A stretch of 64,000 nt of DNA from Shewanella psychropiezotolerans (GTDB lineage Bacteria > Pseudomonadota > Gammaproteobacteria > Enterobacterales > Shewanellaceae): contig NZ_CP041614.1 of NCBI RefSeq assembly GCF_007197555.1, positions 4,766,001-4,830,000 of the forward strand. The letters are read 5' to 3'. Shown in pieces: positions 8,410 through 35,413 of the stretch (the first letter of the stretch is position 1; every line of letters starts with the position of its first letter). The notes beneath the pieces are model-generated. The model had not been told where the DNA came from. It did not search any database and was given only the letters and a program-made list of their open reading frames with translations. The position numbers and the translations under genes are program-made.

Positions 8410-10233
8410 CTAAAAAACAACCGTCTGCTCGGCAGTACAAGTAGATGTCCCCTCATCGCAGGCCTTATAACTATATGAACCACCACCTTTAGAACTAATG
8501 CTATCGGTATACGTCGAACTGGCAGATGTCGTGACAATCAAGCTGCCATCACGGTAAACATCTACATTCGTCCCCGCAGCACCATTAAAGGTTAAATCGA
8601 CCTTCTTCACGCCTTTACTCTTGTAGCCATTTGCGCTCAGAGTAAAGTCGCCACCGGGCTCTCCGCCGCCGTCACCGCCGCAGCCATTAGCAGTAAGGTA
8701 TGCATCTGCTGCTGCCGCTTTAACGATACCGTAGCCAAAATAAACATCATTACCAGCAGCGCCACTATCCATGGCCGTCGCCTTTAAGGCTTCACGGATT
8801 TCACTGCCAGTACATTGGTTATGGTTAGACCAAACCAGAGCAGCCAAGCCCGACACTGCTGGGGTTGCCATTGAGGTACCGCTCATAAAACCATAATCTG
8901 AAGTGCCGATGTCGATAGCAATATTCCCCGCCGCTAATAACGCACTGCGATCCTCAAATGCAGCCCCAACAGCCGGAATACTAGTGGCATTGGTATCACC
9001 TAGCGTGCCATATAACATGCCAGGTTCGTTGTTAATGATAACCGCGCCAACGCCACCTGAGTTTTCACAGTTTGCCACCTTATCGTGGAATGAGATATTA
9101 CCGCGATCGATCACACAGACATTACCATTAGCACCGCTATCGGTTGCCTCTGCCGTGCCCATATAGTAAGTGCTGCCAGTGACACTACCTGGATTTTCCA
9201 TGGCTGAACTCGCAAACGCTGCACCATCGGCAGTCATATTCGCTGCCGTAGCCATACTGGCAGGATAAGTCGAAAGTGTATCTACTCCACCAGCTGTGAC
9301 CTCGACACAGATAGTCTCATCTGTTTTCACCTGCTTGCCACGTCCGGTCGTACAACCAGGAAATTGTGAGAAATCGGCAATTTTATTGTCGGCATCATTA
9401 GCACCAATCATCATCACAGATGGGTAACCCGCAGGGTATGAGCGAACATTATTACCATCGTTACCCGCAGCAGCGACCACCAGGCCACCTGCATCGACGA
9501 ATGACTGGAAGGCATTAGACTCGGTAGAGTTAGAGCCTCCGCCACCTAGACTCATGCTAATAATGTTGGCACCTGCCGCGCTACAAAGATCTGCTGCATG
9601 GGCTAAGTCTGATGAGTAGCCCCAACCATCATCGTTAAACACCTTGATGATGTGCATCTCGACACCCGGTGCCATACCAATCACGCCGACATTATTGTCT
9701 GCCGCACCAATCGTGCCAGCTACATGCGTACCGTGTGGCCCGCCGTTCTCATTCCAGTTGCCTGTGCCTGAATCATTGTCGCCACTGATATTATTCCACT
9801 CAAAATCTGTGTTACTGGCATCGAGTCCAGAATCGATAATACACACCTTCATGCCCGCATTGGCATTGAATGCAACTTGATTAGCTTGAGATTGATACAC
9901 GGCATAAGGTGTGACTTGCTCGGTCATGGGATTACCGGCATCATCACTGTAGGCCGACATAAGTTGACGACGCTGATCCGCTTCAATCAACTTAATATGT
10001 GGGTTGTTAAGCAGCCCTTTCACTTGGGCAAGCTCTTTACCGCTAAAAGTGGCGGCGATAAAGCCATTGCCGTCCACATGGATTTGACCACCGAGTTGCT
10101 TAGTCAGTGCCTTAATGACACCTTTATTGCTGCTATCGACTTGAATAATATATCGATCATCATCTGCAATTACACTTGTAGACACACTCACGGTCAGGGC
10201 CATGATTGCGCCTGCAATTTTAGATAACTTCAT
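8410..10233 (-). CDS. Secreted S8 family subtilisin-like serine protease
   Basis: A 607-residue extracellular endopeptidase. In order: Sec signal peptide (MKLSKIAGAIMALTVSVSTSVIA); an inhibitor I9-like propeptide (YIIQVDSSN...KLIEADQRRQL, about 25-95); an S8 catalytic domain with Asp134 (VCIIDSGLD), His167 (HGTHVAGTIG) and Ser in GTSMATP (about residue 455). A PA-type insert lies between His and Ser (CVIDRGNISFHDKVANCENSGGVGAVIINNE). The C-terminal beta domain of about 80 residues (FTLSANGYKSKGVKKVDLTF) may bind substrate or be removed on maturation. All catalytic triad residues are present, so activity is expected. It stands alone with its own terminator and is presumably for scavenging protein. 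Confidence 0.93.
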   Translation of the reverse strand: MKLSKIAGAIMALTVSVSTSVIADDDRYIIQVDSSNKGVIKALTKQLGGQIHVDGNGFIAATFSGKELAQVKGLLNNPHIKLIEADQRRQLMSAYSDDAGNPMTEQVTPYAVYQSQANQVAFNANAGMKVCIIDSGLDASNTDFEWNNISGDNDSGTGNWNENGGPHGTHVAGTIGAADNNVGVIGMAPGVEMHIIKVFNDDGWGYSSDLAHAADLCSAAGANIISMSLGGGGSNSTESNAFQSFVDAGGLVVAAAGNDGNNVRSYPAGYPSVMMIGANDADNKIADFSQFPGCTTGRGKQVKTDETICVEVTAGGVDTLSTYPASMATAANMTADGAAFASSAMENPGSVTGSTYYMGTAEATDSGANGNVCVIDRGNISFHDKVANCENSGGVGAVIINNEPGMLYGTLGDTNATSIPAVGAAFEDRSALLAAGNIAIDIGTSDYGFMSGTSMATPAVSGLAALVWSNHNQCTGSEIREALKATAMDSGAAGNDVYFGYGIVKAAAADAYLTANGCGGDGGGEPGGDFTLSANGYKSKGVKKVDLTFNGAAGTNVDVYRDGSLIVTTSASSTYTDSISSKGGGSYSYKACDEGTSTCTAEQTVVF

Positions 10234-28431: not shown

Positions 28432-28971
28432 TTAGAAACTGGCTTTGCCACCTATATAGAAACCAGAGTCGAAAGTAGAGTTATTGGTGTTGTCATACTG
28501 CAGACGAATATTTCTGTAGCCAGTATAAAGTGCAAGACTTGGATTTAACTGGAATTGAATTTTACTGTCTAACTCGTACATACCATCGACGCTACCAAAA
28601 GAGAGTACCGAAGGTGCATAATAACCAGACGCATGGAAAGAGAGGTTAGACCCCAGCGCCATAGTGTAACGACCACCCACCCCAATGGCACTGCCGTTAG
28701 CACTGTTTTCCGCCCAGGCATAGGAATACTTTGCTCCGATCTCAAAATGATGAATACCCGCATCATGGGCTACATGTATGGCACTCGATATGAGTTGTCC
28801 CCCATCATTTGAATAGATATATCCGAGTACGGCATTGGCATTATTTTTAAGATCTAGATTAATTTCTGTAGAAATAACGTCATCGTTAAGACCAATGCCA
28901 AAATCGTTGGCATTAGCTGCAACAGAAATACTCGATAGCAGGAGTAGGCTACTCCAAATTTTAACGCTCAT
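28432..28971 (-). CDS. YfaZ family outer-membrane beta-barrel protein
   Basis: A 179-residue protein with a Sec signal peptide (MSVKIWSSLLLLSSISVAANA). The mature part is about 158 residues of alternating beta strands (AIHVAHDAGIHHFEIGAKYSYAW, FHASGYYAPSVLSFGSVDGMYEL, LALYTGYRNIRL) ending in Phe, the outer-membrane assembly signature. The pattern matches YfaZ-family barrels. Its role is unknown; it could be a small channel or structural barrel. GAGG precedes the ATG. That ribosome site and start codon are complementary to part of the third small RNA unit near 30469-30485, so this gene is a candidate target of envelope-stress control. Confidence 0.82.
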   Translation of the reverse strand: MSVKIWSSLLLLSSISVAANANDFGIGLNDDVISTEINLDLKNNANAVLGYIYSNDGGQLISSAIHVAHDAGIHHFEIGAKYSYAWAENSANGSAIGVGGRYTMALGSNLSFHASGYYAPSVLSFGSVDGMYELDSKIQFQLNPSLALYTGYRNIRLQYDNTNNSTFDSGFYIGGKASF

Positions 28972-29251: not shown

Positions 29252-29734
29252 ATGACATCCATCTATGACTTTTCGGTAAATAATATCCAAGGAAAATCGG
29301 TATCCTTATCTGAGTATAAAGATAAGGTGATATTGATAGTCAATACGGCAAGCGCATGTGGCTTCACCCCTCAATATAAAGGGCTACAGGCTCTGTATGA
29401 AAAATACGGCCCTGATAATTTTGTCATCCTAGGGTTTCCCTGTAACCAGTTCGGAGCCCAGGAGAGTGGCAGTGAGAGTGAAATATCTTCATTTTGTGAA
29501 CTGAATTTCGGCGTGAACTTCCCCCTCTTTGAGAAAATAGAGGTCAATGGCCCTGAGGCACATCCCCTCTATGAGTACCTCAAATCCGAGGCTAAGGGGA
29601 TTCTAGGCAGCCAGGGGATCAAATGGAATTTCACCAAATTCTTAATTGATAGCCAAGGAAAGGTGTTAACGCGATTTGCTTCTACCACTAAGCCTGAAGC
29701 GATAGAAAAAGAGATAAATAGTTTGCTAGGCTAA
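29252..29734 (+). CDS. Glutathione peroxidase family (thiol peroxidase, BtuE-like)
   Basis: A 160-residue cytosolic peroxidase that reduces hydrogen and lipid peroxides, probably with thioredoxin or glutathione. Peroxidatic Cys36 is in NTASACGFTPQY. The second motif is LGFPCNQFGAQE, carrying the catalytic Gln and a Cys typical of the two-cysteine, non-selenium type. The third motif IKWNFTKFLID holds the catalytic Trp and Asn. The length is normal. GGAG lies upstream of the ATG. The region after its stop begins the small RNA cluster. Confidence 0.95.
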   Translation: MTSIYDFSVNNIQGKSVSLSEYKDKVILIVNTASACGFTPQYKGLQALYEKYGPDNFVILGFPCNQFGAQESGSESEISSFCELNFGVNFPLFEKIEVNGPEAHPLYEYLKSEAKGILGSQGIKWNFTKFLIDSQGKVLTRFASTTKPEAIEKEINSLLG

Positions 29735-29787: not shown

Positions 29788-29814
29788 GAACTTATTCATT
29801 TTCAGGGCATCAAA
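29788..29814 (+). promoter_or_regulatory. Sigma-E-type promoter of sRNA unit 1
   Basis: GAACTT at 29788-29793, exactly 16 bases, then TCAAA at 29810-29814. This matches the known RpoE form (GGAACTT, about 16 bases, TCNNA). The same spacing recurs before units 2 and 3. Confidence 0.6.
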
Positions 29815-29820
29815 GAATAT

Positions 29821-29940
29821 GAACGCGAAGAAGGTTTTCATGTTCATCATTCTCCCTGGGACTTCTAGCGCGGTCCCCTTGATCTTAAATGATCATCAGG
29901 CAGCCCAATCTTGATAAAAGACTGGTGTTGCCCTTTTTTT
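29821..29940 (+). ncRNA. Candidate sRNA unit 1 (about 120 nt)
   Basis: The start is inferred about seven bases past the -10 element; the end is the T-run of the terminator at 29899-29940. It contains GTTCATCATTCTCCCT (29842-29857), an anti-Shine-Dalgarno-like sequence shared with units 2 and 3, then CTAGCGC and a local GGGAC..GTCCC hairpin. It is the most diverged of the three units. No matching covariance family is known to me. It could instead be only the 3' end of the glutathione peroxidase transcript, but the internal promoter argues for its own start. Confidence 0.5.
29899..29940 (+). terminator. Intrinsic terminator, sRNA unit 1
   Basis: GGCAGC..CCAATCTT pairs with AAGACTGG..GTTGCC (one bulge, one mismatch) and is followed by seven T. 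Confidence 0.75.
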
Positions 29941-30014
29941 GCTTCATTTTCATCAGTTTTCCAAGAGGTAATGATTGGTCGAAAAATAAAAATAACTTTA
30001 TCTGCTTCCAAAAT

Positions 30015-30041
30015 GAACTTTCGCTAAATTAATGACTCATA
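30015..30041 (+). promoter_or_regulatory. Sigma-E-type promoter of sRNA unit 2
   Basis: GAACTT at 30015-30020, 16 bases, TCATA at 30037-30041. The block ATGAACT-N12-ATGACTC is shared exactly with unit 3. Confidence 0.6.
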
Positions 30042-30047
30042 CATAGT

Positions 30048-30260
30048 GAACCGAATTTCTGGCTTCGACTTTTCATACTCAAATGAGTCATTCACAGTCC
30101 CAGCCGTTTCACTGTTCATCATCATCTCCCTTTAGATACGCATTGTATCTACTGGAAACATGTTATCGACTGCTAGCGCTAATCGACATTATTGTTTCCA
30201 ACTACAGATTCTGAATAAGAATTCTTATGGCTCCCCTTTTTAAGGCGGGGCCATTTTTTT
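30048..30260 (+). ncRNA. Candidate sRNA unit 2 (about 210 nt)
   Basis: Start inferred from the promoter, end from the terminator. It carries GTTCATCATCATCTCCCTTT (30112-30131), a GATAC-GCATT-GTATC hairpin, TGCTAGCGCTA, then ACAGATTCT..AAGAATTCTT leading into the terminator. The last 60 bases are nearly identical to unit 3. No sensible plus-strand ORF is present. The CU-rich core could pair with AAGGGAG-type ribosome sites next to ATGATG. Family unknown; the RNA interpretation rests on promoter, repeated architecture and terminator together. Confidence 0.6.
30228..30260 (+). terminator. Intrinsic terminator, sRNA unit 2
   Basis: TGGCTCC / GGGGCCA stem (with a U-G pair that is U-A in unit 3), a short A/T loop and seven T. 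Confidence 0.9.
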
Positions 30261-30387
30261 ATCTTCTTATCACTTTAAAATTCATAACAAGAAGTACCAA
30301 TCGACATAAAACACAATAACAACAACAACTTGACTCAAGACGGATAATGATGAATTCTAATTAATCTAAGTTTTTATCCATAACGAT

Positions 30388-30414
30388 GAACTAATTCAGA
30401 TCCCATGACTCTTA
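30388..30414 (+). promoter_or_regulatory. Sigma-E-type promoter of sRNA unit 3
   Basis: GAACTA at 30388-30393, 16 bases, TCTTA at 30410-30414, with the same geometry as units 1 and 2. Confidence 0.55.
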
Positions 30415-30420
30415 CTATAT

Positions 30421-30597
30421 GTAGCGAGTGCTACATGTTTTCATCATGGTTCATCACCTCCCTTTAGGACGCTCATTTGAGCCTCCAAATGAAGAGTTAA
30501 GTTTGTTTGCTAGCGCTATGCAGCTTAATCATTCATATACAGATTCTTTATAAGAATTCTTGTGGCTCCCCTTAATTTAAGGCGGAGCCATTTTTTT
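30421..30597 (+). ncRNA. Candidate sRNA unit 3 (about 175 nt), possible YfaZ mRNA repressor
   Basis: Start and end are inferred as for unit 2. It holds GTTCATCACCTCCCTTTAG (30449-30467), an anti-Shine-Dalgarno stretch, then ACGCTCAT-TTGA-GCCTC (30469-30485), then TTGCTAGCGCTA and the shared terminator block. The ACGCTCAT and GCCTC segments are complementary to the start codon region and ribosome site of the YfaZ-family mRNA (28964-28980). Units 2 and 3 clearly arose by duplication. Confidence 0.6.
30563..30597 (+). terminator. Intrinsic terminator, sRNA unit 3
   Basis: TGGCTCC..CCTT / AAGG..GGAGCCA stem and seven T, nearly identical to the unit 2 terminator. Confidence 0.9.
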
Positions 30598-30711: not shown

Positions 30712-33700
30712 CTATTTAAGGGTGACCTTTAGCGTCACATCTTCGCTACTAGGCATACTTTGCACCGAGACATAATACCAACCACTCTTTGGCTGATTCA
30801 CAGTCACACTCTCTATGGTACCTGGGTTCGCTGATGCACCTGTGTTGCTGCTCGCATCGGGCCAGCTCTCGCCTACATATAACTCCAGCTCTCCGACGCC
30901 GTGTCCGGTTTCAGCCGTTAAGCTCTGAGTACCGGATGGCACATTGATATAGAAAGATGAGCGACCATTTTTGACACAGATAGGAACACCGTCACTGATA
31001 CTGCCATAATCTTGCACAGTTTCAGTCGCGCACGTATCGGCTAATCCACTAGGTTGCTCTGGCTCAACTGGCGGCTCGACCGGTGTTGTACCCGAGTCAG
31101 TTAAACTCACCTTCACAGTGACACCTGAGTAGCTAGTGCCAGTGTCGATGGCAATATAACGCCAGCCACGATTAGCCACCACATGCAGACTCTCGCTGTT
31201 ACCACTTAGCTCAGACTTAGATTGCGCGTTAGTCGATGACGCCCAAGTATCTGCATTAAAGTAAATGTTGGCATCTCCCTCACCACCTTGTGTAGTGATG
31301 TACAGATCTGTGTTATCCGCATCCACATAGACATAGAAACTGCCTTTGCCACCACTGATACACTCTTCATTTTCAAGGCTCAACTGGCCAGAGGTGATCG
31401 TCGCGACGCCACAGCTCTGCACTACACCATTGTTAGGATCGTTTGGATAGGCATCGGCATTATCACCTACACCGTCACCGTCACTGTCCAAGGTTTCCGT
31501 TGCATCGTTAGGGAAGGCATCTAAGTTATCACCTACACCATCACCGTCACTGTCCAGCGTTTCCGTTGCGTCATGAGGGAAGGCATCTGAGTTATTACCT
31601 ACACCATCACCGTCGCTGTCCAGCGTTTCCGTCGCATCGTTAGGGAAGGCATCGGCATTATCACCCACACCATCGCCATCCGTATCGACAGATTCAGTTG
31701 GATCATTGGGGAAGGCATCTTGTGAATCTATGACGCCGTCCCCATCTGTGTCCACAGGAGTCGTTCCACCACCGACGAGTTCTTCAGTGATTAGGTAATC
31801 ATTACTGACACCTTCTTCCGTCATCACAGCAACGCCTAAACACTGGCCGCCAGTATTGGTAATTGCCGCACGGCGGTTACCAAACCACTTCCAGGTGGTA
31901 GCACTGTCATAGGTTTCTCCGCTTGCCAAGGTCGTGAAACCAAAGCTCTCGCTAAGCTCACCGGTTTCATTGTCTACGCGGTAAACACGCACAGATGTGC
32001 TGCTGTTATTGGTAAAGGAGAAATCAGCCTCAAACGGACCCGTTAGATGCTTATTCATCAGATCACAACTGCCTATTGTATTGGCAGCTGGAATTAGCTC
32101 AGGCGCCGCCACATTAGCAATGGTAGCCGCGTCGATAATGAAATCGGCAGTTGCATTGTTTAGCACACCCACACTTAAACAATTCAAGCGGGCATCGGCT
32201 AGCATGATACGACGATCGCCATACCAGATATCGGATGTGTAGCTCTCCCCCTTATTGAGCGTACCGTAACCAAAATCAAACCCAGTTGCCGCACTGGCAT
32301 ACTTAGGTTTGCCTGTCAGGTTATCGACTCTGAACAGACGAACCGGATAGTCTGTGGTGTTAGTGATGGTAAAGGCATGGGACTCATCCTTGATAAGGTG
32401 AGGTCTCACTAACTCACAGCTGCCCAGCATATCTTGTTCGGGAATCGCCTCAGGCACCACATCTTTGACTAAATCTGCATCGATAGAGAAGCTGTTCTGA
32501 ACCGGCTCCATCACAGCAACCCCTAAACAGTTCATGGCATTATCGGTCAGCATCAAGCGATCGCCTTCACTCCAGCTTGCAGCTGTGTAGCTTTCACCAA
32601 GATTTAACGTTTTATAGTTCTTGGCGAAGTTAGCCGTGCCCTTGTTGTTATCTATCCAAAACAGAGACACAGGCGTATCTGTGGTATTAGTGACCGTATA
32701 TTCGGTCTTATTCGCGTCCACCTTACGCACATATTGCTGAGCCAAGGCGCAACTGCCTATGCTATCCGCTGCCGGAATCAATGCCGTGGCTGGTGACACA
32801 GTTTCAGAATTTGCTAACACGAAGGCTTCGAAACCAGCCTCTGTGCGCTCCGCTACACCTTTTAGTACTTCGATATAGGCGGCATTATCACCGGCCTGCA
32901 GCGCAGCTGTGATAGAGGCGACTTCATCCGGATGCTGCTCACCCAGATAGCGCATGGCAAAATAGCCCCATTGATACAAATCATCATACTCATAGGACAT
33001 AAATAGCAAGTTATACAGAGGTGGAATCGTTTCGCCCTTTAAGGCATTAAGTGTACGGGTATGCTCGGCACCATTGGCCATATACTCGGCCATGCCCTCT
33101 GACCAGGAAACGTTATAATCGAATGAGCCATATGATCCCGCCTTGATATAGCGACCATCTAGATAGTGTACAAACTCATGTCTCAAGTTATAAATCTGGT
33201 CGATATACTGACAAGATGTTCCCACCCAAGAATCCGGACACTGCATGGCAATAAAGCGCGCCTGATTACCGACATTCTCCGGCGTACCTTCGAGGTACAT
33301 ACCACCGTTATTGGTGCTAATGCCGAAAAACTCAGGGGCGTACTTTTCATAATCTTCGGGGCTGGCGAACGCCACCACTTCTATGACATCGTTTTGATCA
33401 CCAGTAACAGGCACGCCGCCGGTATTGAAGAAATTGTGGAACTCAGTCTCTTGCAACGCAATATCGGTGCAAGACTGGGTTAAGGTTGCCTGGCTAATAC
33501 TTGATTGGGCGCGAATAACCACCTTATCGGTACACTGATGACGTACGGTTAAAATGTCTTCCTCTTTCGGTGGCACCACACAGCTACCAAACAAGGGGTC
33601 GCTCGCCTCACACTGACGACCCGCTGACTTTAAGTAATTCTTAGTCACTATGGTCTCAGTGGTTTCGACCGAGATCACCTGAGTCACCTTGCCATGTACC

Positions 33701-34929
33701 TCTAAGATGCTGCTATCGAAACGCGCCTTGGCCTCGTCGGTTGCTATACTCGATATCTTGCCCATAGCGATAAAGGTATGGGGTAAGATCCATTTTCTAT
33801 CGGCTTCGGTGGACCATTTCATATCCAGTGACGTTTCCCCCAAGAAGGCAAAGGAGCGCATCACAGAAAGCACATCCAGCATATTGCTGTTGTAGGCAGA
33901 TTTGACCGAACCATCACCATAGTAGGCAGCAGAACCAATGGCTCCTAGTAGCGCCATGGCCGCATCACCGGCATTGGTGGCGCCAAACGGGTTTGTCTGA
34001 GTAGAGTAGTATTGAATAGTCGCTAACAGGTGAGGCAGTTGGTCCTTAAAGTAGCTCGCACCAGCGCCGCGCTCAAAGTTATTTAGCGCCTTAGCATAAC
34101 CTTCCTGGATAACGCCGCCATCAGTGCTCAAGAAGCCAGTCATACTCGCGACGGCTTGAAGTGCAATGCTCAGCTTAACGGCCTCTGCATCTGACATAGC
34201 AGGCGCGTAATACTTATATGAGCCCAAGAAATACAGCAGTTGATTGAGATCTGGGTCGGTCAGATCGTCAGCGCTCGCAAGATAGTGAACCGCATCGCTC
34301 ACATCATCAATAGGGTCATTTACACCACTGGCAATACCTTCAAAATCGCTGTAAGTCGCGGCTAAGATGGTAGCAATCGCGTTGCCGTATTGTGCTTTCG
34401 ATGAAATAGATGGCGTAGGAAGGTCGACAACAATATTCGTGTCGAAAACAATATAGTCACCCATAGGAGGTGGAATATCGCCACCAGTCACAGTCACTTG
34501 CAGTGTCGTTTCTTGTATGTTGCCGTTAATCTTGAAATAACGTGCTCCGGCGCGGGACACGAAAGAGATTGACTCATTATTAGTACCGACTGTGGCACTG
34601 GTCAGTTCCGCATTGCCACTCCAGTCATCACCATCATAGAGGACGATATCGGCATCACTGCCACTGAATGTTCCACCGGATGTAGTAATGGTGACATCAC
34701 TGTTCTCATAGGGCACATTCACATAGAAATAATGACCATAATCGGTAATACAATAAGCTTGATTAGCGGGGACTTCCCCCTGGCGCTCTAAGGTTTTAGT
34801 GCCACACATCTCGGCCGCTTGCACTGAGGGAGCGTATAGCACACCTAGGTTAAGGGTAAGTAAGATAGCGCTAGCTAGAATAGACTTTTTGGAAGATATA
34901 CTATTTATTGGTTTTATAATGTTTCTCAT
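30712..34929 (-). CDS. Microbial collagenase, peptidase M9 family, secreted
   Basis: ATG 34929 is chosen: GAGGT lies upstream and it begins a proper signal peptide (SILASAILLTLNLGVLYAPSVQAAE); the open frame extends upstream to 35043 without a better start. The product is 1405 residues. In order: an N-terminal PPC-like beta domain, the M9N activator region, the catalytic domain with zinc motif HEFVHYLDGRY and downstream SWSEGMAEYMANG (third ligand Glu). Three similar beta modules of about 105 residues follow (each with LIPAADSIGSC / VIP.QDMLGSC and a Cys near LGVAVM). Next come five thrombospondin type-3-like calcium repeats (DTDGDGV.D..DAFPND) and two C-terminal PPC domains. It degrades collagen-like proteins outside the cell. 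Confidence 0.93.
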   Translation of the reverse strand: MRNIIKPINSISSKKSILASAILLTLNLGVLYAPSVQAAEMCGTKTLERQGEVPANQAYCITDYGHYFYVNVPYENSDVTITTSGGTFSGSDADIVLYDGDDWSGNAELTSATVGTNNESISFVSRAGARYFKINGNIQETTLQVTVTGGDIPPPMGDYIVFDTNIVVDLPTPSISSKAQYGNAIATILAATYSDFEGIASGVNDPIDDVSDAVHYLASADDLTDPDLNQLLYFLGSYKYYAPAMSDAEAVKLSIALQAVASMTGFLSTDGGVIQEGYAKALNNFERGAGASYFKDQLPHLLATIQYYSTQTNPFGATNAGDAAMALLGAIGSAAYYGDGSVKSAYNSNMLDVLSVMRSFAFLGETSLDMKWSTEADRKWILPHTFIAMGKISSIATDEAKARFDSSILEVHGKVTQVISVETTETIVTKNYLKSAGRQCEASDPLFGSCVVPPKEEDILTVRHQCTDKVVIRAQSSISQATLTQSCTDIALQETEFHNFFNTGGVPVTGDQNDVIEVVAFASPEDYEKYAPEFFGISTNNGGMYLEGTPENVGNQARFIAMQCPDSWVGTSCQYIDQIYNLRHEFVHYLDGRYIKAGSYGSFDYNVSWSEGMAEYMANGAEHTRTLNALKGETIPPLYNLLFMSYEYDDLYQWGYFAMRYLGEQHPDEVASITAALQAGDNAAYIEVLKGVAERTEAGFEAFVLANSETVSPATALIPAADSIGSCALAQQYVRKVDANKTEYTVTNTTDTPVSLFWIDNNKGTANFAKNYKTLNLGESYTAASWSEGDRLMLTDNAMNCLGVAVMEPVQNSFSIDADLVKDVVPEAIPEQDMLGSCELVRPHLIKDESHAFTITNTTDYPVRLFRVDNLTGKPKYASAATGFDFGYGTLNKGESYTSDIWYGDRRIMLADARLNCLSVGVLNNATADFIIDAATIANVAAPELIPAANTIGSCDLMNKHLTGPFEADFSFTNNSSTSVRVYRVDNETGELSESFGFTTLASGETYDSATTWKWFGNRRAAITNTGGQCLGVAVMTEEGVSNDYLITEELVGGGTTPVDTDGDGVIDSQDAFPNDPTESVDTDGDGVGDNADAFPNDATETLDSDGDGVGNNSDAFPHDATETLDSDGDGVGDNLDAFPNDATETLDSDGDGVGDNADAYPNDPNNGVVQSCGVATITSGQLSLENEECISGGKGSFYVYVDADNTDLYITTQGGEGDANIYFNADTWASSTNAQSKSELSGNSESLHVVANRGWRYIAIDTGTSYSGVTVKVSLTDSGTTPVEPPVEPEQPSGLADTCATETVQDYGSISDGVPICVKNGRSSFYINVPSGTQSLTAETGHGVGELELYVGESWPDASSNTGASANPGTIESVTVNQPKSGWYYVSVQSMPSSEDVTLKVTLK

Positions 34930-35413
34930 AGGGTTTACCTCATGCAACGGCGCCAGCTTATCGCTGGACATACTATTCATATAAGTAAAAAGACACTTTA
35001 GTTCTACGATGCGACCCGTAGATATTCCTTTGACTGCACACATGCAAGGTGGGCAGGTGTCTTTAATTATCCATCTCTATTTATTGATTTTTTCTTGGTG
35101 CTTTCACTAGACAGTACTTTTGTTAATAAAATGTTTCTTTTATTTCTACTGTATATTGCATGCAATAATCAAGGGTAGATGAATATTAATCATGTTAAAG
35201 CTTGAGGGATATTTGAATAAGAATTGAATAAAAAATAAAATAAGGATTATAAATCAGATAAATACGTCATGTAGTAACCTATCTTACGAAGGTTAATTAT
35301 ATGACTCAATGTTCAGTACATATTATTGAGCGATTTGAGTTCGTTCGAACCTAACTTTAAGCCTCTGGACTATAATTACTACTAACGCCATATTGGCTTC
35401 GAGAGGTAACACC
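34930..35413. other. Intergenic region between divergent collagenase and YbaK-family genes
   Basis: AT-rich, with divergent promoters expected. Apart from the alternative upstream extension of the collagenase frame to 35043, I see no gene, strong hairpin or repeat in it. Confidence 0.4.

Follow-up and report, generated by a model that had tools for sequence, protein, structure and literature searches.

MicA is an enterobacterial sigma-E small RNA that silences outer-membrane protein (OMP) mRNAs such as ompA, and RybB, VrrA and MicV, which have sigma-E promoters, likewise act on OMP targets; in RybB-type RNAs the seed sits at the 5′ end. A multicopy family is found in Listeria where, according to the available text of PMC4132741, the five homologous RNAs LhrC1-5 have a UCCC-type Shine-Dalgarno-binding motif and all copies are induced by cell-envelope stress; they belong to a Gram-positive host, are controlled by the LisRK two-component system, are near-identical and carry three CU-rich sites each (PMC4132741). 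For Shewanella, the available text of PMC4336711 gives the RpoE motif as GAACTT, 16 or 17 bases and TCCAAA, and places GAACTT-N16-TCTAC upstream of rpoE itself.

The locus compared here lies in the window, that is, the whole analysed stretch of 64,000 nucleotides (4766001–4830000) of the 6.45-Mb genome of Shewanella psychropiezotolerans. It holds three tandem units which, judged from sequence, are probably multicopy sigma-E-driven small RNAs that silence OMP mRNAs through an unpaired seed, as MicA does. No Rfam family matches the window at the gathering score, and at a lax threshold the unit region gives 16 weak rows, GcvB among them. GcvB (RF00022) was rejected as an identity: units 3 and 2 score 22.8 and 12.5 bits against a gathering score of 42, and the promoter type and genomic place of GcvB differ from those of the units. 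The MicA model (RF00078, threshold 41 bits) has no match in the window or in 12 unit-carrying Shewanellaceae loci. Against RybB, VrrA and MicV, as far as Rfam covers the three, the units give no match at the gathering score, and the 5′-terminal seed of the RybB type is not seen in the units. With LhrC1-5, as far as the available text of that paper goes, the units share the several homologous copies and the CUCCC motif, and a tie to envelope stress is suggested for them by their promoter; this is a likeness in layout and motif, with no sequence relation shown.

The earlier note on this DNA knew of no described Shewanella RNA with such a layout, which fits Rfam and the open-access literature as covered by titles and the beginnings of abstracts among the matches listed. 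The main texts of two S. oneidensis sigma-E papers, one of them the MR-1 RpoE paper, contain neither "sRNA" nor "small RNA", and the main text of the WP3 in-silico small-RNA paper (PMC5471319) contains none of "tandem", "rpoE" and "glutathione peroxidase". Apparently, what is new here is the expandable tandem array together with a genus-specific loop, while stress-sigma-driven anti-start small RNAs are a known kind.

Anatomy of the Units

The features of the locus are as follows (window coordinates).

29252–29734, + strand: btuE-type glutathione peroxidase gene (PF00255), the usual neighbour upstream of the array
29788–29814, + strand: sigma-E-type promoter of unit 1, GAACTT-N16-TCAAA, read from the sequence, N16 kept in relatives
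29820–29940, + strand: predicted small RNA of unit 1 (U1), start placed about 6 nt past the −10 box; 53 distinct related sequences in alignment A1
29843–29857, + strand: seed of unit 1, TTCATCATTCTCCCT, predicted unpaired; TTCATCA at 29843
29858–29877, + strand: hairpin SL1 of unit 1, GGGAC(TTCTAGCGCG)GTCCC, CTAGCGC loop at 29865–29871, with A-U/G-C compensatory changes
29881–29894, + strand: hairpin SL2 of unit 1, GATC..GATC, from consensus fold and covariation analysis
29899–29940, + strand: intrinsic terminator of unit 1 with U7 (T7 at 29934–29940)
30015–30041, + strand: sigma-E-type promoter of unit 2, GAACTT-N16-TCATA
30047–30260, + strand: predicted small RNA of unit 2, seed 30115–30133 (TTCATCA at 30115), CTAGCGC box 30173–30179
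30228–30260, + strand: terminator of unit 2 with U7 (T7 at 30254–30260)
30388–30414, + strand: sigma-E-type promoter of unit 3, GAACTA-N16-TCTTA
30420–30597, + strand: predicted small RNA of unit 3, seed 30450–30465 (TTCATCA at 30450), CTAGCGC box 30510–30516
30563–30597, + strand: terminator of unit 3 with U7 (T7 at 30591–30597)
30712–35043, − strand: M9 collagenase gene, 1443 aa (PF01752), convergent downstream neighbour in the window's clade; context outside the RNA family

From 5′ to 3′, a unit consists of a promoter, an open TTCATCA...CTCCC stretch, a hairpin exposing CTAGCGC, a terminator stem and seven T. All three −35/−10 pairs, read from the sequence at 29788/29810, 30015/30037 and 30388/30410, are spaced by N16, and three of the four matches of GAACT[TA]-N16-TC[ATG][TGA]A on both strands of the 64-kb window are these units. 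The fourth match, GAACTA-N16-TCGAA, is at 8492 on the + strand. The three terminators are missing from the output of the terminator scanner and are shown by folding.

The promoters of the three units at the positions that the earlier note had given, and the seed-side, CTAGCGC and seven-T motifs that it placed after each, were all found again in the sequence. The CTCCCT that it placed after each seed is exact in the window and takes the forms TCCC, ATCCC and CCCC across the family, and units 2 and 3, whose ends it described as nearly identical over about 60 bases, agree at 81% along their last 92 bases; the U-G to U-A change that preserves the terminator stem is among the differences (read by eye).

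Promoter Spacing and the Sigma Factor

The promoter, the 3′ arms, SL2 and the terminator played no part in selecting units. The promoter boxes are conserved in relatives: the strict boxes stand at N16 in 164 of 181 units, at N17 in five and at N14 in one, and at none of the other spacings from 12 to 20. This set leaves out L172–L187 and the units without full flanks, and, as in the sets of 141 and 180 units, those identical over the key window are counted once. By way of control, 53 of 1304 random 210-nt stretches match the strict promoter at N16, a figure lowered somewhat by skipping stretches that hold TTCATCA and matching stretches at most 400 bases from the same unit. In the first unit set, 136 of the 141 distinct units bear a promoter, 131 of them with N16, and among the five misses two are apparently chance hits.

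The unit promoters resemble the motif mapped upstream of Shewanella rpoE, as given in the available text of PMC4336711, and this resemblance suggests that the units depend on RpoE. RpoE2 was considered as the sigma factor and is not favoured, its published promoter in the same text being TGATCC/CGTATT (PMC4336711).

Seed, Stems and the CUAGCGC Loop

Units were collected by patterns requiring TTCATCA, a CC-containing stretch and CTAGCG, and the 53 distinct unit-1 sequences of alignment A1 were additionally required to contain CTAGCGC and GGG[AG]C. Since the selection patterns contained these motifs, the invariance of TTCATCA and CTAGCGC in A1, and the presence of CTAGCGC in 175 of 180 units, are partly by construction; the 180 units are the promoter-bearing subset of 248 rows, the others including alignment rows and chance hits. 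The selection was relaxed in counts over 25 stretches, themselves chosen by pattern: all 98 units defined by an N16 promoter and CTAGCGC have TTCATCA between the two, and CTAGCGC is found no more than 150 bases away at 93 of the 109 seed-like sites that have an N16 promoter. The 16 sites lacking it include near variants (TTTAGCGC, CTAGCGT, CTGGCGC), units of genome G056 and a few false seeds; L155 and L156, being chance hits, are excluded from the listing of seed variants.

Folding alignment A1 to a consensus gives three stems, in which 97.2% of the cells are paired, and pairing falls to 35–54% when a stem partner is shifted by 1–3 columns. Double-change cells number 49 against a shuffled mean of 13.3, which none of 500 shuffles reaches, a count to be read with the fold being derived from the same alignment and with kinship of the sequences inflating covariation. 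Two of the five covariation measures lie within the shuffles (double-change pairs 160/500, further pair types 64/500).

The predicted mean unpaired probability over 164 units is 0.75 in the seed, 0.66 in the box and 0.36 elsewhere, and predicted openness exceeds that of the rest of the RNA for the seed in 163 and for the box in 155 of the 164. The arms flanking the box pair over at least 6 bases in 161 of 180 units, as against about 26% of random positions. Predicted RNA lengths range from 87 to 259 nt (median 168.5), and the predicted combination of an intrinsic terminator with U tail and an unpaired seed is that of Hfq-dependent trans-acting small RNAs.

The CUAGCGC loop might offer a second site for pairing, or one for a protein. 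Palindromic kissing via GCUAGC was considered and is not favoured: U1 reads UCUAGC at this place, and the core common to the units, CUAGCGC, is no palindrome. It is a puzzle that a hairpin loop of 7 bases should persist across most of the genus while the units read in a related genus lack it.

Occurrence and Arrays in Shewanella

Two patterns were used, with seed plus box in a short-spacer or a long-spacer version. Pattern 1 matches 113 of 117 Shewanella genomes (reversed control 2/117), individual matches having been seen among the matches listed; pattern 2 matches 52 of 117 (reversed control 7/117), and some of its rows look like chance. R1, a covariance model of unit 1 built without the four pattern-negative genomes, finds unit 1 in all four of them (E 6e-13, 9e-17, 6e-13 and 2e-12). 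The family is thus present in all 117 Shewanella genomes searched, by the pattern among the matches listed and by the covariance model. In three of the four genomes reached by the model only (G017, G056 and G065), unit 1 keeps TTCATCATTCTCCC and the promoter, not the box. Later units of G056 do have CTAGCG. In the same genome, L365:100-1950 (−) holds more units, with seed TTCATCATTTATCATCTCCC, 305–582 bases apart and with CTAGCGT or CTAGCGC downstream, which the standard pattern had missed.

The array layout was read in 23 stretches (the window, L094, L015 and 20 others), in which a btuE match is a neighbour in 19 and an M1 peptidase in 13. In Shewanella sp. ANA-3 (NC_008577.1), the genome of L015, −35 boxes stand at about 3438208, 3438452 and 3440781. 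As a rule btuE is followed by unit 1, by zero to seven units of "class B" (our own label for the tandem units after unit 1) head to tail, by a convergent M1 peptidase gene, in many cases by a small M9 collagenase gene, and by a last unit; in the window's clade the units adjoin the 1443-aa M9 collagenase instead. A terminator-like hairpin and T run are present at every unit listed in the stretches read. Head-to-tail arrays reach eight units, and pattern matches reach nine per genome: in G029 eight tandem units share a contig and a first unit lies on a second contig, and other genomes have six or seven. In G090 six copies lie 386 bases apart with identical printed seed-to-box sequence, and such near-identical copies point to recent amplification. 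Genome G110 has three U1-type units in a row (L261), with no btuE match within the 4.5-kb stretch, so the first unit itself can be amplified.

In the genome of the window, a BLAST search started from units 2 and 3 revealed two more units about 120 kb upstream (L094). Both have −10 box TCTGA at N16, seed, box and terminator, and they flank genes for an M1-family peptidase and for an M9 collagenase of 296 aa (L094:4720-5610, +). By pattern, this genome therefore has five units in total. The earlier note was right about duplication and understated its extent, given these five units and the up to nine matches elsewhere. Its central claim, that small RNAs with sigma-E-type promoters form a duplicated family here, finds strong support in the genus-wide occurrence, the N16 spacing, the predicted unpaired seed, the covarying stems and the terminators that the units have of their own.

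Limits of the Family beyond Shewanella

An order-wide sample of 394 genomes was searched, 30 of them Shewanella including the genome of the window. Seed plus box occurs in 30 of 30 Shewanella genomes and in 18 of 364 others, and 15 of 16 non-genus hits examined as loci have no N16 promoter. L176, which lies outside the genus and has GAACTT-N16-TCACA, was rejected as a family member, the promoter-like match being taken as chance. In the three genomes of a related genus of the same family, seed plus box occurs in none. In the covariance-model search, of a kind that the earlier note had suggested over Shewanellaceae, R1 recovers unit 1 in the four pattern-negative Shewanella genomes; outside Shewanella its best E is 0.02 in the three related-genus genomes and 0.13 in nine others of the order.

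A further pattern asks for the promoter and TCATCATCnC and leaves the box aside; in the same sample of 394 genomes it matches 66 (reversed control 17). It is found in all three related-genus genomes and in 17 of the 30 Shewanella genomes, the genome of the window being unmatched, as its seeds and spacings differ; 33 further genomes with a match look like chance. The related-genus units also form arrays: G466 has five units 155–160 bases apart, G482 five units 148–168 bases apart and two more, and G145 four units 151–506 bases apart. Among 16 related-genus units re-read, CTAGCG is within 150 bases of the −35 box in none and a T run is present in all, and the presence of promoter and UUCAUC in these units follows from the search pattern. 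Because the unit-1 model is not significant outside the genus, homology of the arrays of both genera rests on promoter, seed and tandem layout. In view of the box-less first units of G017, G056 and G065 and the box-less units of the related genus, promoter plus seed seems to be the core that is kept more widely, and the hairpin with CUAGCGC seems to be a trait of Shewanella.

The same pattern also retrieved MicA. L367, one of its matches, is MicA by Rfam (85.1 bits), and the 13 promoter-plus-seed rows of family f18, L367 included, are all taken by us to be MicA. The L367 gene is single and adjoins what, read from the sequence, is presumably a luxS-like gene. MicA and the units agree in the N16 promoter (GAACTC-N16-TCTGA in most of the 13 rows), in being short terminator-ended RNAs and in the type of seed, which in MicA is UUAUCAUCAUCCC, about 20–30 nt from the start. 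As to a UCAUCAUC-type seed, the promoter-plus-seed pattern retrieves MicA along with 17 of the 30 Shewanella genomes, that of the window excepted; in many units the seed is far from the 5′ end. They differ in place and in the loop: MicA of L367 is a single gene beside the luxS-like gene and has no CUAGCGC, whereas the units form arrays behind btuE and, in Shewanella, have it. Because the Rfam model fails to match and the genomic place differs, the units are not MicA, though the promoter agrees and the seed is similar. The sequences are most economically read as those of RNAs that would function like MicA, encoded in an array and probably assisted by Hfq.

Candidate Targets

Reversed and complemented, the seed looks like a start region, with a Shine-Dalgarno sequence ahead of (A)UGAUGAA. 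Exact complements of this kind occur at 18 sites in the genome of the window, five of which are the units' own antisense, and the other 13 show no recognisable OMP starts. Exact complements stand at the starts of genes that, by names read from the sequence, are presumably 2-hydroxyacid-dehydrogenase-like and CcmH-like. In the same genome, 38 OMP start regions (porins and TonB receptors) were compared with 132 others for the five seeds; preference for OMPs is not significant (p 0.13–0.47), and at most 2 of 100 shuffled seeds discriminate OMPs as well as the real seeds.

The best predicted target encodes a Porin_O_P-family OMP (25.6 bits against a cut-off of 20.9), and its leader has GAGAATGATGAA, 12 contiguous bases complementary to U1, with a predicted energy of −24.5 kcal/mol; this choice was not blind, because the gene was noticed while controls were being read. 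Orthologues at E 1e-60 occur in 32 of 60 Shewanella genomes. For 20 of 29 orthologous start regions the predicted pairing with the open U1 seed reaches at least −16.0 kcal/mol, and for nine it is weaker. The mean over the 29, in which L297 was scored from a wrong start (the right one gives −19.4), is −17.0 kcal/mol, and 200 shuffled seeds give −10.2 (sd 1.5), none of them as low; the orthologues are related and do not count as separate cases, and something other than this pairing may be what preserves the leader. The average with the same open seed is −9.0 kcal/mol for 82 neighbouring start regions, one of which (L281) is the porin itself. In a swap test over 19 genomes, the genomes' own RNAs pair with their own porin no better than the RNAs of other genomes. 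A joint loss of RNA and target site in G017 and G056 was considered and dropped, because the covariance model showed U1 in both. The anti-Shine-Dalgarno, OMP-silencing reading of the earlier note has indirect support from the predicted pairing with one porin mRNA, in 20 of 29 orthologues; OMP starts, 38 against 132, are not significantly preferred.

As a separate observation, the target porin has ATTGCTAGCGC within the region coding for its signal peptide (L271:1516-1526), in the same letters and sense as the RNA loop, and GCTAGCGC is present in 4 of the 29 orthologues.

Proposed Role and Alternatives

From these features we infer transcription, dependence on RpoE and Hfq, the targets, and purposes for copy number and the CUAGCGC loop, as follows. 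Each unit would be an independently transcribed small-RNA gene read by RpoE/sigma-E. The resulting RNA would carry an unpaired UUCAUCA...CUCCC seed, a hairpin that exposes CUAGCGC in its loop, and a terminator ending in a run of U. When the envelope is under stress, the seed would pair, very likely with Hfq, with the Shine-Dalgarno/AUG(AUG)AA start region of OMP mRNAs and so block their translation, as MicA does in enterobacteria, the best predicted target being the phosphate-selective-porin-like gene. Tandem duplication would set the number of parallel promoters, and hence dose and steepness of the response, and leave the copies free to drift in seed spacing.

The opposing readings concern what the RNA acts on. 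It is rather unlikely, though the likeliest of the alternatives, that these are sigma-E-type small RNAs whose main targets are not OMPs but, for instance, a wide range of mRNAs with a GGGAG Shine-Dalgarno sequence or other RNAs: the insignificant OMP enrichment in the window's genome and the exact complements at presumably 2-hydroxyacid-dehydrogenase-like and CcmH-like starts speak for this, and the predicted U1 pairing with the porin leader in 20 of 29 orthologues, seen against neighbouring and shuffled controls, together with the similarity of seed and promoter to MicA, speaks against it. CUAGCGC differs from the GGA motif of CsrA-binding RNAs. This difference speaks against the idea, which we regard as improbable, that multicopy sigma-E-driven RNAs titrate an RNA-binding protein through the loop in the manner of CsrB and CsrA, the seed being minor. 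CTAGCGC does lie in a hairpin loop, is widely kept in Shewanella (93 of 109 sites, several of the 16 misses being near variants or false seeds), and a high copy number would suit titration; but each RNA has one loop only, unit 1 of three Shewanella genomes keeps TTCATCATTCTCCC and the promoter and not the box, and CTAGCG is found in 0 of 16 related-genus units, where promoter and UUCAUC are present by the search pattern.

Two further readings deny a regulatory RNA altogether or make it coding. That the units are a REP-like repeat or a decaying duplication, with incidental likeness to promoters and terminators, would agree with arrays as uniform as the six copies 386 bases apart; it is nevertheless very improbable in view of N16 in 164 of 181 distinct units, for which the promoter was no selection criterion, of the compensatory stem changes and of the presence of the family in all 117 Shewanella genomes searched. 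Least probable of all is that they are short protein-coding genes. U1 does contain a small open frame, ATG TTC ATC ATT CTC CCT..., and frames of 24 codons in unit 1 and 35 codons in unit 3 can be read by eye, but this reading was rejected because one-base length differences among relatives (TTCATCATTCTCCC vs TTCATCATCTCCC) break the frame; frames also differ between units, and covariation follows the RNA stems. The preferred reading remains that of MicA-like, sigma-E-driven silencing RNAs.

A wider proposal built on this reading is tentative. In Shewanellaceae, the non-coding arm of the sigma-E response may be run from expandable tandem arrays instead of single MicA/RybB-type genes, with a seed shared with MicA by descent or strict convergence; copy number, which varies among species with up to nine matches, might be an evolving gain knob, and Shewanella might have added a second recognition element of its own, the CUAGCGC hairpin loop, for pairing to another RNA or for binding a protein. 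The genus serves as a model of respiration through the outer membrane. If the units are indeed such MicA-like silencing RNAs, the family would be a missing RNA arm of its envelope-stress response, the purpose of multicopy small RNAs, a long-standing question, could be tested via natural copy-number variation, and a second lineage would be available for studying the evolution of the MicA-type seed.

Further Observations on Neighbouring Genes

Near the related-genus arrays there is a gene for a DUF6515-like protein, above the Pfam cut-off in L362 and below it in L361. Away from the main array, two genomes of the related genus also have a single sigma-E-type unit each with TTTTCATCATCATCTCC (L364:1010, +; L362:1558, −), divergent from a DAHP synthase gene whose Pfam match was checked in L362. 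In the genome of the window, both M9 collagenase genes, that of 1443 aa (with a PPC domain) and that of 296 aa, adjoin units of the family. Finally, a YfaZ-family outer-membrane protein gene (PF07437, 177 bits) lies divergent from btuE at 28432–28971 (−) of the window, and a gene of the same family is a neighbour in another Shewanella genome as well (L366:4568-5119).
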